A DNA stretch of 10,790 bases. Origin: Bacteroidales bacterium (GTDB lineage Bacteria > Bacteroidota > Bacteroidia > Bacteroidales > JALTDM01). Under the pieces are notes generated by a model. The model searched no databases. It was not told the origin of the DNA and saw only the letters and a list, made by a program, of their open reading frames with translations. The stretch covers positions 1 to 10,790 of the forward strand of contig JALWKH010000361.1 in assembly GCA_026996635.1 (NCBI GenBank), given 5' to 3'. Of the stretch, positions 5,167 through 9,508 are shown piece by piece (the stretch's first letter is position 1; the number at the start of each line of letters is the position of its first letter). Position numbers and translations under genes: made by a program.

Positions 5167-5186
5167 TGTGTTTTAAACCTTTTTTG

Positions 5187-5194
5187 CAAAAATA
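5187..5194 (-). promoter_or_regulatory. -7 promoter element for recC
   Basis: The minus strand reads TATTTTTG, a match to TAnnTTTG, 20 bp upstream of the recC ATG. No convincing -33 TTG is visible. A promoter here would explain how recC is expressed although it is separated from recD by plus-strand genes. Confidence 0.4.
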
Positions 5195-5311
5195 AAATAA
5201 AAATCGTGTAGTCTAATTATCAGCGGTTAAAGGTTGGTAGTTTGATAATTTTGAAAAAATGTGGTAATTTGCTAATTATTAATGGTTAATGATTAGTTGT
5301 TAGTGATATGC

Positions 5312-5319
5312 TACCTTTG
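5312..5319 (+). promoter_or_regulatory. Plus-strand -7 promoter element upstream of structured block
   Basis: TACCTTTG is a full match to the Bacteroidota -7 consensus. Transcription would begin a few bases downstream, near 5325, and run through the structured block at 5384-5570, possibly into the adhesin gene. The nearest upstream TTG (5297-5299) is only 12 bp away, which is too close for a normal -33 element, so the call rests on the -7 element alone. Confidence 0.4.
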
Positions 5320-5383
5320 TCATTTATGGCAGGGTAAGAAAAAATACTTCCAATGATAGACATAAAAAACAAAGCGTCGGCCA

Positions 5384-5570
5384 GGTCAAAATGGCGGGGT
5401 TGCGGTGGGCGTGAATGGCAAAACATCTGCGAATACGAGGGAAAGTCCGCCGTAAGGCGGATTATAAACGAAAAATATGGCAATCGGCGTTGGCTTGTGC
5501 GATTTTTCGTTTTCCGCTTTTCCCGTAGTCGCCATGTTTTGACAGAGCGGGTGGAAGCATCATTTTGACC
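5384..5570 (+). ncRNA. Candidate structured RNA or structured repeat element (187 nt)
   Basis: I counted 94 G/C in 187 bases, against about 27-30% in the flanks. Pairing is nested. A 10-bp perfect closing stem joins 5384-5393 (GGTCAAAATG) to 5561-5570. After a 25/19-nt internal bubble come CAAAACAT 5419-5426 with 5534-5541, GCGA 5429-5432 with 5529-5532, TAC 5434-5436 with 5525-5527, and GGGAAAG 5439-5445 with 5517-5524 (one bulge). Two hairpins close the apex: TCCGCC-GTAA-GGCGGA (5446-5461, a GNRA tetraloop) and an 11-bp perfect stem 5466-5476 with 5502-5512. The plus strand is preferred because of the -7 element at 5312 and because the tetraloop reads GUAA on that strand. It could instead be a dispersed palindromic repeat. 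I do not recognise a named RNA family. Confidence 0.45.
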
Positions 5571-5748
5571 GAGATATTGATCTTTGTATCGAATAACAAA
5601 GAACGATAAAAAATCTAAGGATAAAGCCAATGCATTTTCTGACTTTAACTTCGAAATCGTATATCCTATCGTGTAATTTTATTCGCAATAAATATATACT
5701 GCACGAAAATTTTTTTAAAAAATTTTGCCAACAGAAAAAATTGAACGA

Positions 5749-5770
5749 AATTGCAATTCAAAATTTTGAA
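5749..5770. promoter_or_regulatory. Two overlapping perfect palindromes next to the adhesin start
   Basis: AATTGCAATT (5749-5758) and TTCAAAATTTTGAA (5757-5770) are both perfect palindromes sharing two bases, and they end 2 bp before the ATG at 5773. Such symmetry could be an operator for a dimeric regulator. The sequence is AT-rich, so chance is a real alternative. Confidence 0.25.
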
Positions 5771-5772
5771 GT

Positions 5773-5856
5773 ATGAATACTAAATTAATTCAAGCATTCA
5801 AGCATTCAAGCATTCAAGCAGGACAGCTGTTAAAAGGTTCTTATTATTATTTTTAA
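5773..5856 (+). CDS. Out-of-phase 5' end of the adhesin gene (27 codons, ends TAATG)
   Basis: From the ATG at 5773 the frame runs through four octamer repeats (reading IQAFKHSSIQA) and then stops at TAA 5854-5856, whose last A is the first base of the ATG at 5856. It is probably the detached start of the downstream adhesin gene rather than a separate peptide. With one octamer fewer, the same ATG would continue as MNTKLIQAFKHSSRTAVKRF and on through a hydrophobic core (LLLFLMLIG) to AFS-Q, a normal signal peptide. As it stands, only termination-reinitiation at the TAATG overlap would connect the two frames. A sequencing error in the repeat could give the same picture. Confidence 0.6.
   Translation: MNTKLIQAFKHSSIQAGQLLKGSYYYF
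5788..5820 (+). repeat. Octanucleotide tandem repeat, 4 x ATTCAAGC, inside coding start
   Basis: Four perfect units lie at 5788-5795, 5796-5803, 5804-5811 and 5812-5819, with one extra base matching the next unit. Eight is not a multiple of three, so each gain or loss of a unit shifts the frame. By my frame count, 3 or 6 copies join the ATG at 5773 to the adhesin; 4 copies (present) stop at 5854 and 5 copies stop at the TAA at 5831-5833. This is the form of a slipped-strand phase-variation tract. Confidence 0.85.
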
Positions 5857-7025
5857 TGTTAATAGGCAGTATTCAACTTGCTTTCTCACAATGGGCAATA
5901 GGCTGGACTAAAGATCCTTCCGATGGATGGTTGTATCACAACAAAGGTGTGACTTTAGGAGACAGTGTATATCCACATTATAAACTTCTTATTACTAACA
6001 AAGCTGCCGGTGAAGAAAATATTTTTATGCAAATTGCCAATACTATACTGACAGGATCTTTGGCAACAGACGGATTCTTGGTAGGATTAAACGGAATAAA
6101 CGCTATCCTCAACCAACAAGAAGATGCAGACATTATATTTAAAACCAATGCTACCGATAGAGCAGTTATAAAAAACAACGGATATGTAGGAATAGGAATA
6201 ATGGATCCGAAGCATAACTTACATGTTCACGGAACAGGCACAACAGGCGGCGGAACATCTGGAGGAGGATTATCAACCACACAGGTTTCCTCACACAGAA
6301 ATGCCCAAACAGACAATAAATCGTTACCGATTGGTCATATAACACCAACTGCTTACGGTGCAATACAGATAACAAACAATACAACGGGAACAAGTGCAAC
6401 AGACGGGCTATTGATAGAAGTAAGAAACAACAGTGCAGCAATTAACCTGCAAGAGCGTGGAAGCATCAGTTTCCGCAACTCGGGTAAGACATGCATGCAA
6501 ATAAGCCCTGAAAACAATCTTAAAATCGGAAAAATCACAAATATAACCGATGAGTCTAAAGTAGGTATATTCAGCGCCGGACAAAACGGCTTGCTCGTGA
6601 CAACCGTTAACAACCCCGACGGTTATATATTCAAAGCCAGAAATAGTTCATCTTCCAATGCTCTGGTTGTAAAAGGAGACGGGAAAGTTGGCATAGGTAC
6701 AGACAACACGCAAGGACATAAACTTGCAGTAAAAGGAACGGTTATTGCGGAAGAAATATTTGTTAAAGAAGCAAGTGACTGGCCGGACTTCGTTTTTAAT
6801 AAAAACTATAAAATATTACCATTGAACAAGTTGGAAAGTTTTATAATTAGAAATAAACATTTGCCCGGAATCCCCACAGAAGCGGAAGTAAAAGAAAACG
6901 GCATAAAACTCGGAGTGATGAACAAACTTCTGCTACAAAAAGTGGAAGAACTTACACTTTATATTATTCAACAACAAAAAGAAATTGAGACATTAAAAAG
7001 GGAAATTGTTAATTTGAAAAAATAA
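5856..7025 (+). CDS. Exported fibre/adhesin-like protein with C-terminal HLPGIP module; signal peptide out of phase
   Basis: This frame has 389 codons from the ATG at 5856. The body is built from repeated beta-rich units: segments with ATDG-F/L-L (70-75, 181-186), NxxxAxxNLQ-type turns, and GYVGIGxxDP...NLHVHG (109-126) or GKVGIGTDN...KLAVKG (276-294), as in trimeric fibre and tail-fibre-like proteins. A glycine-rich linker spans about 127-139. The C-terminus (about 296-389) is a module common in secreted Bacteroidota proteins: AEEI, WPDFVF, HLPGIP (335-340), NGIKLGVMN, KVEELTLYI, ending in a short coiled coil. No T9SS sorting tail is seen. The ATG at 5856 leaves only the last part of a signal peptide (AFS-Q). 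The upstream in-frame codons supply KRF and a leucine-rich core, but an in-frame TAA at 5781 precedes them with no ATG, GTG or TTG between, so the true start is probably the out-of-frame ATG at 5773. Adhesion is inferred. Confidence 0.8.
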   Translation: MLIGSIQLAFSQWAIGWTKDPSDGWLYHNKGVTLGDSVYPHYKLLITNKAAGEENIFMQIANTILTGSLATDGFLVGLNGINAILNQQEDADIIFKTNATDRAVIKNNGYVGIGIMDPKHNLHVHGTGTTGGGTSGGGLSTTQVSSHRNAQTDNKSLPIGHITPTAYGAIQITNNTTGTSATDGLLIEVRNNSAAINLQERGSISFRNSGKTCMQISPENNLKIGKITNITDESKVGIFSAGQNGLLVTTVNNPDGYIFKARNSSSSNALVVKGDGKVGIGTDNTQGHKLAVKGTVIAEEIFVKEASDWPDFVFNKNYKILPLNKLESFIIRNKHLPGIPTEAEVKENGIKLGVMNKLLLQKVEELTLYIIQQQKEIETLKREIVNLKK

Positions 7026-7039
7026 AAATATTTAAAATC

Positions 7040-7564
7040 ATGAAAAATACAACAATAATTTTACTGGTAATTTTTCTTGCAGTGGGTTTAAATTCCTGCA
7101 AGAAAACATACGAAGAAGGTCCTGCGATTTCTCTACGCTCCAAATTCAGCAGAATAACAGGCAAGTGGAAACTGGTATCAATTGAAGGTGTGCCACGCTT
7201 ACATCCGGAAGTTGACCAATATATGGAACTGACAAAAGAAAAAATTGACGGTGAGAAGTATAAAGCTATTTTTACTAATTTTCAAGACGAGTATTGCTTG
7301 GGAGATACTGCGACCGGTGATAGTTTGTTTAACGAAATAGGGTATTGGTGCTTTTTTGGAGGTGGAATTTGGGGGGATAATGAAGAAGTACTATCTGACA
7401 AAGAGGGATTAAAACTTGTAATTATTGACACACCTGATAAATGGGCAATGACTTCATGGAAAATCTTGAAATTAACGAATAAAGAATTAACAATAATAAG
7501 TCCTATTTCAGAATTTTATTGTTATTATCACACACAGAGAAAATTAACATTTGAAAAAGAATAG
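7040..7564 (+). CDS. Small lipocalin-like lipoprotein of unknown function
   Basis: This 174-residue protein has a lipoprotein signal peptide: a basic MK start, a hydrophobic core (IILLVIFLAVG) and LNSC with the lipidated Cys at 20, followed by KK. The mature part begins CKKTYEEGPAISLRSKFSRI and continues GKWKLVSIEG, a pattern I associate with lipocalin-like lipoproteins of Bacteroidota, where a GxW motif opens a small beta-barrel. Alternating hydrophobic strands follow to the end (KLTFEKE). It starts 14 bp after the adhesin stop and ends 3 bp before the T9SS cargo gene, so it is probably the middle gene of an operon and an outer-membrane-anchored partner of its neighbours. A G6 tract (7371-7376) lies in the gene. 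Ligand and function are unknown. Confidence 0.8.
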   Translation: MKNTTIILLVIFLAVGLNSCKKTYEEGPAISLRSKFSRITGKWKLVSIEGVPRLHPEVDQYMELTKEKIDGEKYKAIFTNFQDEYCLGDTATGDSLFNEIGYWCFFGGGIWGDNEEVLSDKEGLKLVIIDTPDKWAMTSWKILKLTNKELTIISPISEFYCYYHTQRKLTFEKE

Positions 7565-7567
7565 TTT

Positions 7568-9508
7568 ATGAAACATCTATTTGTATTACTCAGTACAGCA
7601 ATATCATTTTTTTCTTTTGGTCAAAACTATGAGAATATCGCAATAAAAGAAAAATATGATATTTTGAATCAACAACTTATTGCCAGTTATTCAACTTGCA
7701 CTATTGATCCAAATAATGATGCTAAAACTTTTGGTGATGGTTTGTCAAAAGTACTTGAGGGTTACATAATAATGTACAAAACTACAAAAGACAAAGCATA
7801 TTTGTATAAATTCATTATTCAGTCTATTTGTGTTATGGAAAATAGGCATGATTTTGTTGGCATAAATTCTGATCCACGTTGGAGTTGGGAACCTTTAATG
7901 TATGAAGATGGTTATATTATCGCTTCAATGTCACATTTTGTTTATTTAATAAAAAAAGAAGAACCTGAATTAATAAATTTGAAATTATACCCTTTCCCTA
8001 AAATAATAAATAACGAATTTGGGATTACATTCACTACTTTTGGACAATTTGCTAATTGGCTAGATAATAAAGTAAAAGAAACACTTGATTGGTATGTTTC
8101 AGAAGGATATTGGAAAAACAGTTGGGGTTTTCAACAATATACAGATGCACGTAGAGCTGCAATATTGAACCAGCAGGCTGGTTTTGCAATTACACTATTA
8201 TTTTTAGGTATATCAAATTCAAATTCTAATTATTTAGAAAAAGCATACAAAATAGCAGGTTTAATAAAAGGTAATGTACATTTTTATGATGAATGTAAAA
8301 ACAAATTTTATGCTTCACCTGTTTTGCAGTTAGGAAGTAATAATTCGTATTGGTGGTATGATAATGGCTGGAGTATTCCCACCAGAGATTGCTGGAAATT
8401 TATACCATTACCTCCATACGTTATATATTTATGGAATATACCCAATTACGATGGTTACACTTCTTACATTGAAGATTTAAGTCACGGGGCAATAGATAGC
8501 TGGTTATTTTACTATTATTTTCTTTATTTACCTAATTCTCCTCTTACAGAAAATGACATGATTAGATTTCATAACACTTTTACACAAAATATAAATAAAG
8601 ATGGATATTTGCACACAGGAGTTGATGGAAGTTTTAATACTGCTCTTGAAGGAAGGGAAGATTATAATTACCATAAAATTAATTTATTAAAAAAATGTTG
8701 TTCTATAGCTTTTATGCCTTTTTATAGATGGGATAATTGTTCCAATGCATATGGTAGTGTTTATGATGAGACTATGAATTATTTTTTAACATATTTTAAT
8801 TCATACGATATTATTCCTCCGTATTACTATGGTCAAGCAAATTTATCCCATGCATTTGTAGTTCAAGCACAGTGGGATAAAGAATGTCCTAACCTTACTC
8901 TATACAATAGAAAAGTTGTGTACGACCAAGATTTTTTTTCTAAAAGTACTTTAACTGTTGCTCCACAAGAATCACAAGGTGATTCGTATGCCGATCCAAC
9001 AATTCAAGATAAAACATTTACTGTTGAACCCGGTGTTACAGTTAATATGCGTGCAGCCAAAAGCATCGTACTTAAGCCGGGCACACAAATAAAAGCCGGT
9101 TCATATTTTCATGCATATATTGATCCAAGTCTTTGCTCAAATAGCAAAAACAATAAAAATATAATAACAGATAATTCAATTTTACCAAAAGAAAATATTC
9201 AAGAAGAAAGTACAGATCAAACAAAAATAGTAGAAGAAAATACATTATTTGATGTTTCATTAAATATTTATCCTAATCCTTTTTCCGAACAAACGCTAAT
9301 TAATTTTTCCTTACCGAAAACAAGTAAAGTAACTCTTAAAGTTATTGACAGTTATGGGAAAATACTTTTTAACAAAATAACAGATAAAACATTGTCGGAA
9401 GGGATTTATAACATACCTTTCATAGGGAAGGACTTGCCTGATGGGTTTTATTTCTGTATTTTAATTGTTGACAATAAAACTTTTACAAAAAAAATAATAA
9501 AACAATAA
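7568..9508 (+). CDS. Secreted T9SS cargo protein, putative alpha/alpha-toroid N-terminal domain
   Basis: This 646-residue protein has a signal peptide (cleavage likely after SFG at 18, before Gln19). Residues about 20-440 are rich in Trp and Tyr and look like paired helices (WSWEPLMYEDGYIIASMSHF near 105-124, NQQAGFAITLLFLG near 201-214, EDLSHGAIDSWLFYYYFLYL near 302-321). This resembles alpha/alpha-toroid carbohydrate-active enzymes; candidate polar residues are Glu/Asp in EDLSHG and GREDYNYH (362-369), but no catalytic motif is certain. A linker domain follows (about 480-520: FTVEPGVTVNMRAAKSIVLK and AGSYFHAYI), frequent in T9SS substrates. The last 85 or so residues form a type A sorting domain (IYPNPFSEQTLINFSLP, SYGKILF, LPDGFYFCIL, KKIIKQ). 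The gene is clearly AT-rich: 43 G/C in 180 bases in the blocks starting at 7981, 8221 and 8761. Polysaccharide degradation or binding is a guess. Confidence 0.85.
   Translation: MKHLFVLLSTAISFFSFGQNYENIAIKEKYDILNQQLIASYSTCTIDPNNDAKTFGDGLSKVLEGYIIMYKTTKDKAYLYKFIIQSICVMENRHDFVGINSDPRWSWEPLMYEDGYIIASMSHFVYLIKKEEPELINLKLYPFPKIINNEFGITFTTFGQFANWLDNKVKETLDWYVSEGYWKNSWGFQQYTDARRAAILNQQAGFAITLLFLGISNSNSNYLEKAYKIAGLIKGNVHFYDECKNKFYASPVLQLGSNNSYWWYDNGWSIPTRDCWKFIPLPPYVIYLWNIPNYDGYTSYIEDLSHGAIDSWLFYYYFLYLPNSPLTENDMIRFHNTFTQNINKDGYLHTGVDGSFNTALEGREDYNYHKINLLKKCCSIAFMPFYRWDNCSNAYGSVYDETMNYFLTYFNSYDIIPPYYYGQANLSHAFVVQAQWDKECPNLTLYNRKVVYDQDFFSKSTLTVAPQESQGDSYADPTIQDKTFTVEPGVTVNMRAAKSIVLKPGTQIKAGSYFHAYIDPSLCSNSKNNKNIITDNSILPKENIQEESTDQTKIVEENTLFDVSLNIYPNPFSEQTLINFSLPKTSKVTLKVIDSYGKILFNKITDKTLSEGIYNIPFIGKDLPDGFYFCILIVDNKTFTKKIIKQ

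Follow-up and report, generated by a model that had tools for sequence, protein, structure and literature searches.

The window analyzed here, a stretch of 10,790 nt, is contig C361 of a draft genome of 2.2 Mb (G000; 461 contigs, completeness 88.69), and it carries a gene for a fibre-like protein with an octamer array at its start and two further genes close behind it (Table 1). Both TRF and a script of our own identified the unit ATTCAAGC in 4.1 perfect copies (four full units and one base, 33 nt in total), beginning 15 nt past the A of the ATG at 5773, which bears out the four perfect octamers that the original prediction had read behind this ATG. A search of the whole draft genome for two adjacent units returned three overlapping matches, all at the window array and none elsewhere.

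The frame of the ATG at 5773 runs for 27 codons and then meets TAA at 5854-5856, where the prediction had placed its end, and the third frame is closed as well. Upstream, a TAA at 5781-5783 closes the frame of the fibre-like gene, which stays open thereafter for 413 codons to 7025, reading INSSIQAFKHSSRTAVKRFLLLFLMLIGSIQLAFSQWAIG..., with a basic patch and hydrophobic core (VKRFLLLFLMLIGSIQLAFSQ) and a hydropathy maximum of 2.86 versus 1.08 and 1.02 in the other two frames. The open frame and the hydropathy maximum agree with the predicted signal peptide and 389-codon protein in another frame, and the frame translations with the claim that a single register yields the full protein and the others end early. 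Only in part did a further claim stand, namely that the gene frame has no ATG, GTG or TTG start: this is true of 5781-5855, but halfway through the hydrophobic core comes a first standard start, ATG 5856, from which the ORF lister begins its 389-codon ORF.

Table 1. Features of the window, with strand and the evidence or remark for each
Feature	Position	Strand	Evidence or remark
Conserved upstream segment, presumed promoter and start-codon context	5713..5772	+	Alignment with relatives
Start codon ATG and leader ATGAATACTAAATTA	5773..5787	+	Sequence; ATGAATACTAAATTAATT also precedes the heptamer array of G001 C68
Octamer array (ATTCAAGC)4.1, proposed slippage switch	5788..5820	+	Codes for SSIQAFKH in every frame, zero stops
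OFF-state reading, 27 codons and stop (MNTKLIQAFKHSSIQAGQLLKGSYYYF, stop)	5773..5856	+	Frame translation
Signal peptide in the gene frame (VKRFLLLFLMLIGSIQLAFS, mature start Gln 5889)	5829..5888	+	Translation, hydropathy; cleavage site inferred by eye
Open frame, fibre-like protein (413 codons stop-free; 389 from ATG 5856)	5784..7025	+	ORFs, dN/dS ~0.2, Bdellovibrio-fibre profile match
Second gene of putative operon, 174 aa, lipoprotein-like start (SCKK, by eye)	7040..7564	+	14 nt past the fibre stop
Third gene, 646 aa, type IX secretion cargo (Por_Secre_tail / TIGR04183)	7568..9508	+	3 nt past gene 2
Segment with the fibre cassette, absent at the matching G001 site	5321..9497	.	Genome comparison; recC-/recD-like genes flank

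This arrangement would allow switching by reading frame. The array sits a few codons past the start codon, in what would be the part coding for the basic n-region of the signal peptide, and slippage during replication would gain or lose 8-nt units; one register of three would then join the start codon to signal peptide and fibre (ON), and the other two would terminate within about 30 codons (OFF). In ON members of the family, the repeat-coded residues preceding the hydrophobic core are SSIQAFKH, ATSNKQQ and SSIKHQA. Whichever frame is read, the octamer and heptamer units contain no stop and yield hydrophilic peptides with lysine, although stop-free coding alone is a weak argument, as 65% of 8-mers and 69% of 7-mers are stop-free in that sense.

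Repeats at the starts of related genes

Four family starts were visible in G001, a genome of the same genus. On contig C2, the ATG is followed after 7 nt by 3.4 copies of ATTCAAGC, out of frame (OFF); on C57, 5.7 copies of AAGCAAC stand directly after the ATG, again out of frame (OFF); C68 has the window leader ATGAATACTAAATTAATT and then 12.7 copies of AAGCAAC, in frame up to the contig end, 52 nt past the array; and C288 has 4.4 copies of CATCAAG in frame, ON for 554 codons. In a fifth copy, on C234, the upstream region is present and the N-terminal part absent. Across the upstream segment and leader, identity to the window was 88% for C68 (66/75), 87% for C2 (62/71), 81% for C288 (50/62) and 65% for C57 (41/63), with gaps omitted; such figures (65-88%) come out high for any pair in A+T-rich DNA. 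The segment may act as a promoter.

The joint between array and gene on C68 (L061, 3776-3990) was compared with that on C57 (L022, 8984-9110). After the heptamer array the two are identical at 52/52 nt, the stretch on which the family membership of C68 rests; before the array 44/57 aligned sites agree, and there C68 is closer to the window (the 66/75 above). Contig C85, identical to C57 at 298/300 nt, begins within the last 32 nt of C68 and extends its frame, and is a candidate for its true continuation. These identities suggest recombination at the array, with a mosaic joint between C68 and C57, the alternative being a chimeric contig.

A different kind of repeat was found in G385, a 2.5-Mb genome from another family of the order with three members (C43, C142 and C130). 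In C43 and C142, (CA)7 follows shortly after the ATG (19 and 17 nt; positions 4344-4357 of L106 and 1501-1514 of L192, respectively), and both are out of frame, with C142 seen for 72 codons only because its contig stops about 190 nt past the repeat. Genome-wide, (CA)7 occurs in G385 at only these two places, both being starts of fibre family members, and a whole-genome search found none in G000 and G001. In C130 an interruption breaks the CA tract (CACACGCACTTAGC) and reading continues in frame; this member is a natural in-frame control. The N-terminal profile gave no match reaching its first position in the five other genomes of the family to which G385 belongs.

A pure repeat thus follows the ATG in 7/8 members whose start was seen as DNA (the window included), a tally that omits C85, whose start is off the contig, C234, which has no N-terminal part, and the partial matches at other places in G000, G001 and G002. 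The distance from the A of the ATG to the repeat is 3-19 nt, and the repeats fall into three classes, with units of 8, 7 or 2 nt, never a multiple of 3. Two of the seven are ON (C68, to the contig end, and C288) and five OFF (the window, C2, C57, C43 and C142), which is close to one register in three. This recurrence of repeats at one position in related genes, some of them ON and others OFF, supports the phase switch that had been proposed. That the candidate switch is real is well supported by its anatomy and by a comparison in which copy number differs between paralogues and between species rather than among strains at a single locus. The relatives suggested earlier as a check, whose copy number differs and whose frame is whole, accordingly turned up as paralogues and in other species, and not at the same locus in other strains.

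Further family members were available as protein sequence only. Two of these, P0008 and P0009 from metagenomes, are in the ON state, and their N-termini are those that octamer arrays of ATTCAAGC (MNINSSIQAFKHSSSR... in P0008) and AATCAAGC, respectively, would encode. Four proteins (P0003, P0005, P0006 and P0007) are annotated from internal starts in or just past the signal peptide, which fits OFF; P0004 starts without Met and may be cut, and P0011 has a signal peptide and no repeat. When N-termini of P0002-P0227 were scanned by script for peptide repeats, only P0147, a collagen-like protein, was flagged, and P0008 and P0009, whose arrays span little over one peptide period, were missed.

Residues 24-160 of P0008 were matched by 10 proteins (of 185 candidates) in the protein database, and the N-terminal family therefore looks small. 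The whole profile gave 2,947 protein matches at E 1e-20, of which the best 120 are listed. Within the order it matched 115/393 genomes; among the matches listed, only those in G000, G001 and G385 reach the N-terminal part, and those in the remaining genomes are confined to the common C-terminal half. The N-terminal profile matched 12/395 genomes in the class, the window's genome included, and a short repeat near the start was found in 0/17 of the more distant relatives obtained in this way (14 distinct N-termini; the fetched DNA ends at the start in two). A genome contig collection yielded five loci, four being C85, C2, C57 and C288 of G001, and the fifth (L075) starting differently and showing no repeat close to the match. 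Among viral contigs, 100 stretches matched a pattern, none encoding a relative by the family profile.

The fibre-like protein and its gene row

The fibre-like protein matched no Pfam family. Its model, built as one chain from a 35-sequence alignment (pLDDT 70.5, pTM 0.47), consists of repeated strands and a C-terminal helix at residues 352-388, and the top Foldseek matches were the Bdellovibrio fibres 8ond, 8oml and 8onc (five chains, E 2e-6 to 4e-4, TM-scores 0.10-0.25). A single chain was modeled, and this fold match counts only alongside the profile match, in which the sequence profile finds Bdellovibrio fibres as well (8ond, E 4.4e-13; 8ojn, 8.8e-10). By fold and profile together, the mosaic adhesive trimer (MAT) fibres of Bdellovibrio are the closest solved structures (8ond, 8oml, 8onc/8ojn), and a putative beta-helix region of the protein may resemble the solved MAT fibre tips. 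The excerpted text of PMC10769870 describes MAT proteins as surface-located and typically ~1,000 aa long, whereas the window protein has 389-413 aa and ends in a long helix; phase variation of MAT fibres goes unmentioned in that excerpt. MAT proteins are further marked by a conserved beta-rich domain of ~130 aa behind the signal peptide. The motif SDxxxK of the S74 end, which marks the S74 subgroup of MATs, was absent in 13/13 family proteins checked. The capping-loop motif as printed in the same excerpt (V-G-G/N-x-x-x-P-x-x-x-L; PMC10769870) was found in 0/9 proteins, and the near variant [VL]GI[GN]xxxPxxxL in 9/9. A role as surface fibre or adhesin is likely, and the protein would be exported and displayed on the surface.

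In the window and in the gene rows of relatives, spacings between genes are -14 to 22 nt, and in the window, C57 and C288 the fibre gene heads a tight putative operon with type IX cargo. The second gene of the window had no Pfam or NCBIfam match. Downstream of C57 lies a C10 peptidase with a sorting domain; downstream of C85, a metallophosphoesterase with a GCX_COOH domain and a beta-helix protein, with no sorting domain found up to the contig end; and downstream of C288, a 146-aa protein with a sorting domain, two matchless proteins and an RHS/YD-repeat protein. The last of these, which ends the C288 gene row (L024, 3-4256), is large and has a partial SpvB-type N-terminal match. A C-terminal type IX sorting domain was absent from the fibre proteins scanned and present in downstream genes. 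Given the tight spacing, an OFF fibre gene may also lower the genes behind it, i.e. exert polarity on the cargo.

At the corresponding site, G001 (L172, C121) holds 413 nt between its recC- and recD-like genes instead of window positions 5321-9497, and the fibre cassette is a variable piece of the genome. Inverted or direct terminal repeats were sought within 5167-5790, with nothing clear emerging. Elsewhere in G000, contig C205 (L178) matches the flank of G001 C68 with 88% identity over 1,390 nt; there a similar upstream segment stands ahead of another protein, one that carries a type IX sorting domain, and the fibre gene is missing. This flank is perhaps a site of cargo gene exchange.

Chance arrays and alternative explanations

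To gauge chance, arrays were counted in simulated and real DNA. At a threshold of at least 24 nt, units of 5-11 and at least 2.9 copies, 200 first-order Markov runs of the window gave 0 arrays versus 1 in the real window. A scan for units of 4-12, at least 20 nt and at least 2.8 copies, with contigs cut at 20 kb, found 2 arrays in 200,683 nt of G000 (40 of 461 contigs) and 0 in 116,679 nt of G001 (20 contigs), a density at which the five 40-nt start regions in G000 and G001 should together hold about 0.001 arrays. The pattern CAAGC-N(2,3)-CAAGC-N(2,3)-CAAGC matched 26/295 genomes of the order and its reversed control also matched in many, so that the motif alone is not diagnostic. Where inspected, CAAGC-type heptamer arrays in other Bacteroidales (L062, L065, L068 and others) do not lie at fibre-family starts. 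In nine regions from other genomes, a script placed one array (L063) in a long open frame, before a lipoprotein-like gene with its own ATG; two more (L062 and L065), read by eye, lie at no such start.

We put the probability at about 0.87 that the window gene is an SSR contingency locus switching by translational frame, of which the window holds an OFF copy. Slippage would be the source of the copy-number change, and may be slow because the 33-nt array is short. It is hardly credible that the assembly has miscounted the units and that the gene is in truth fixed in frame: the assembly is a draft of 461 contigs and contig C68 of G001 ends 52 nt past its array, but an array of 33 nt fits within a usual short read, and the separate assemblies G001 and G385 have arrays in the same slot. 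A recently dead gene or plain frameshift, which would leave the array as a passive remnant and make a pseudogene of this strain's fibre gene, is very unlikely, though it would be in keeping with the closed ATG frame and with the existence of C234, a relative without the N-terminal part. Against it, paralogues and members from another family, some of them ON, hold differing repeat units in the same slot, and the 413-codon frame is intact, with pairwise dN/dS (Nei-Gojobori) of 0.20 versus C2, 0.20 versus C85 and 0.22 versus C57, although dS in these pairs (1.35-1.81) is near saturation and a recently dead gene would give similar ratios; versus C288, dS is saturated and the ratio not computable.

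Expression independent of register, whether from a non-standard start (e.g. ATT 5784), from ATG 5856 or by ribosomal frameshifting, is in our judgment highly improbable. The ATG at 5856 is in frame, and Bacteroidetes mRNAs are said, in the excerpt available, to be without Shine-Dalgarno sites, which makes starts hard to predict (PMC6847099), but a product begun at 5856 would be without the basic n-region of the signal peptide, and ON members use a plain upstream ATG. Moreover, in C57, which is OFF, the gene frame is free of ATG, GTG and TTG until 9237, well beyond the signal peptide, so that no alternative start of these kinds is common to OFF members.

A more far-reaching reading, which we offer as tentative and somewhat doubtful, is that a "repeat slot" is kept after the start codon and filled by turned-over or unrelated repeats (8-mer, 7-mer, CA), that it would serve as a crossover point swapping promoters and signal peptides between paralogues, and that polarity would switch a whole type IX operon; in this reading the 8- and 7-mers would code for a hydrophilic n-region in all three frames. 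If this were true, the population would display random combinations of fibre-plus-cargo sets.

Known parallels and meaning

Repeat-driven ON/OFF switching is best known in Neisseria and Haemophilus, and Bacteroides is best known for DNA inversion. In Neisseria, opa occurs as several paralogues per genome, and Opa is an outer-membrane barrel, unrelated to the fibre-like protein. In the portion of PMC3960869 available, CTCTT pentamers in the leader-peptide region of opa switch a surface protein by frame. Frame switching of the window gene would resemble this in having 5' coding repeats within the leader peptide of a surface protein; here, too, the repeat codes for part of the predicted signal peptide, as in an opa-like switch. 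The opa unit, however, has 5 nt versus 8, 7 or 2 nt within one fibre family, and the fibre gene, unlike opa, stands first in a putative operon with type IX cargo in the window, in C57 and in C288.

The neuO gene of E. coli K1 prophage CUS-3 offers a second likeness, with AAGACTC heptamers in the 5' coding region and frame-based switching, ON when the copy number is divisible by three and OFF in 42/64 genomes (PMC13001214, in excerpt), but neuO is an O-acetyltransferase and its repeat belongs to the enzyme, whereas that of the fibre gene belongs to the signal peptide. In Haemophilus influenzae, heptamer and octamer SSRs are described at hmw1A/hmw2A and the HI1369 homologue, one heptamer lying inside an ORF (PMC2651432, in excerpt); units of 7 and 8 nt, and unit classes that differ at the same kind of gene between strains, are common ground, but at hmw most of the repeats sit ahead of the gene, in its promoter region, where they tune transcription, and the fibre repeats lie in the coding region. 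PMC4692102, in its accessible part, describes SSRs of 6-9 nt as rare. Phase variation by inversion in Bacteroides concerns the same order, surface products and random switching, but operates through invertible DNA, not repeats, and the excerpted text of a 2025 review mentions Bacteroides in connection with inversion-type switching, with a temperature-dependent report of 1990 and with studies still under way, but not with repeats (PMC11868660). No published description of repeat-driven switching of a Bacteroidales surface gene was found among the titles and openings of abstracts searched, mostly in the open literature, which is weak evidence of absence. What we describe looks like a mechanism already known, in a group where such repeat switching is little described.

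Three repeat classes in one slot, together with an in-frame control, indicate an opa-type switch in Bacteroidales. Gene callers begin OFF genes at internal codons and thereby hide the switch, and the frame of the first 100 nt may serve as a marker for ON and OFF states in metagenomes.
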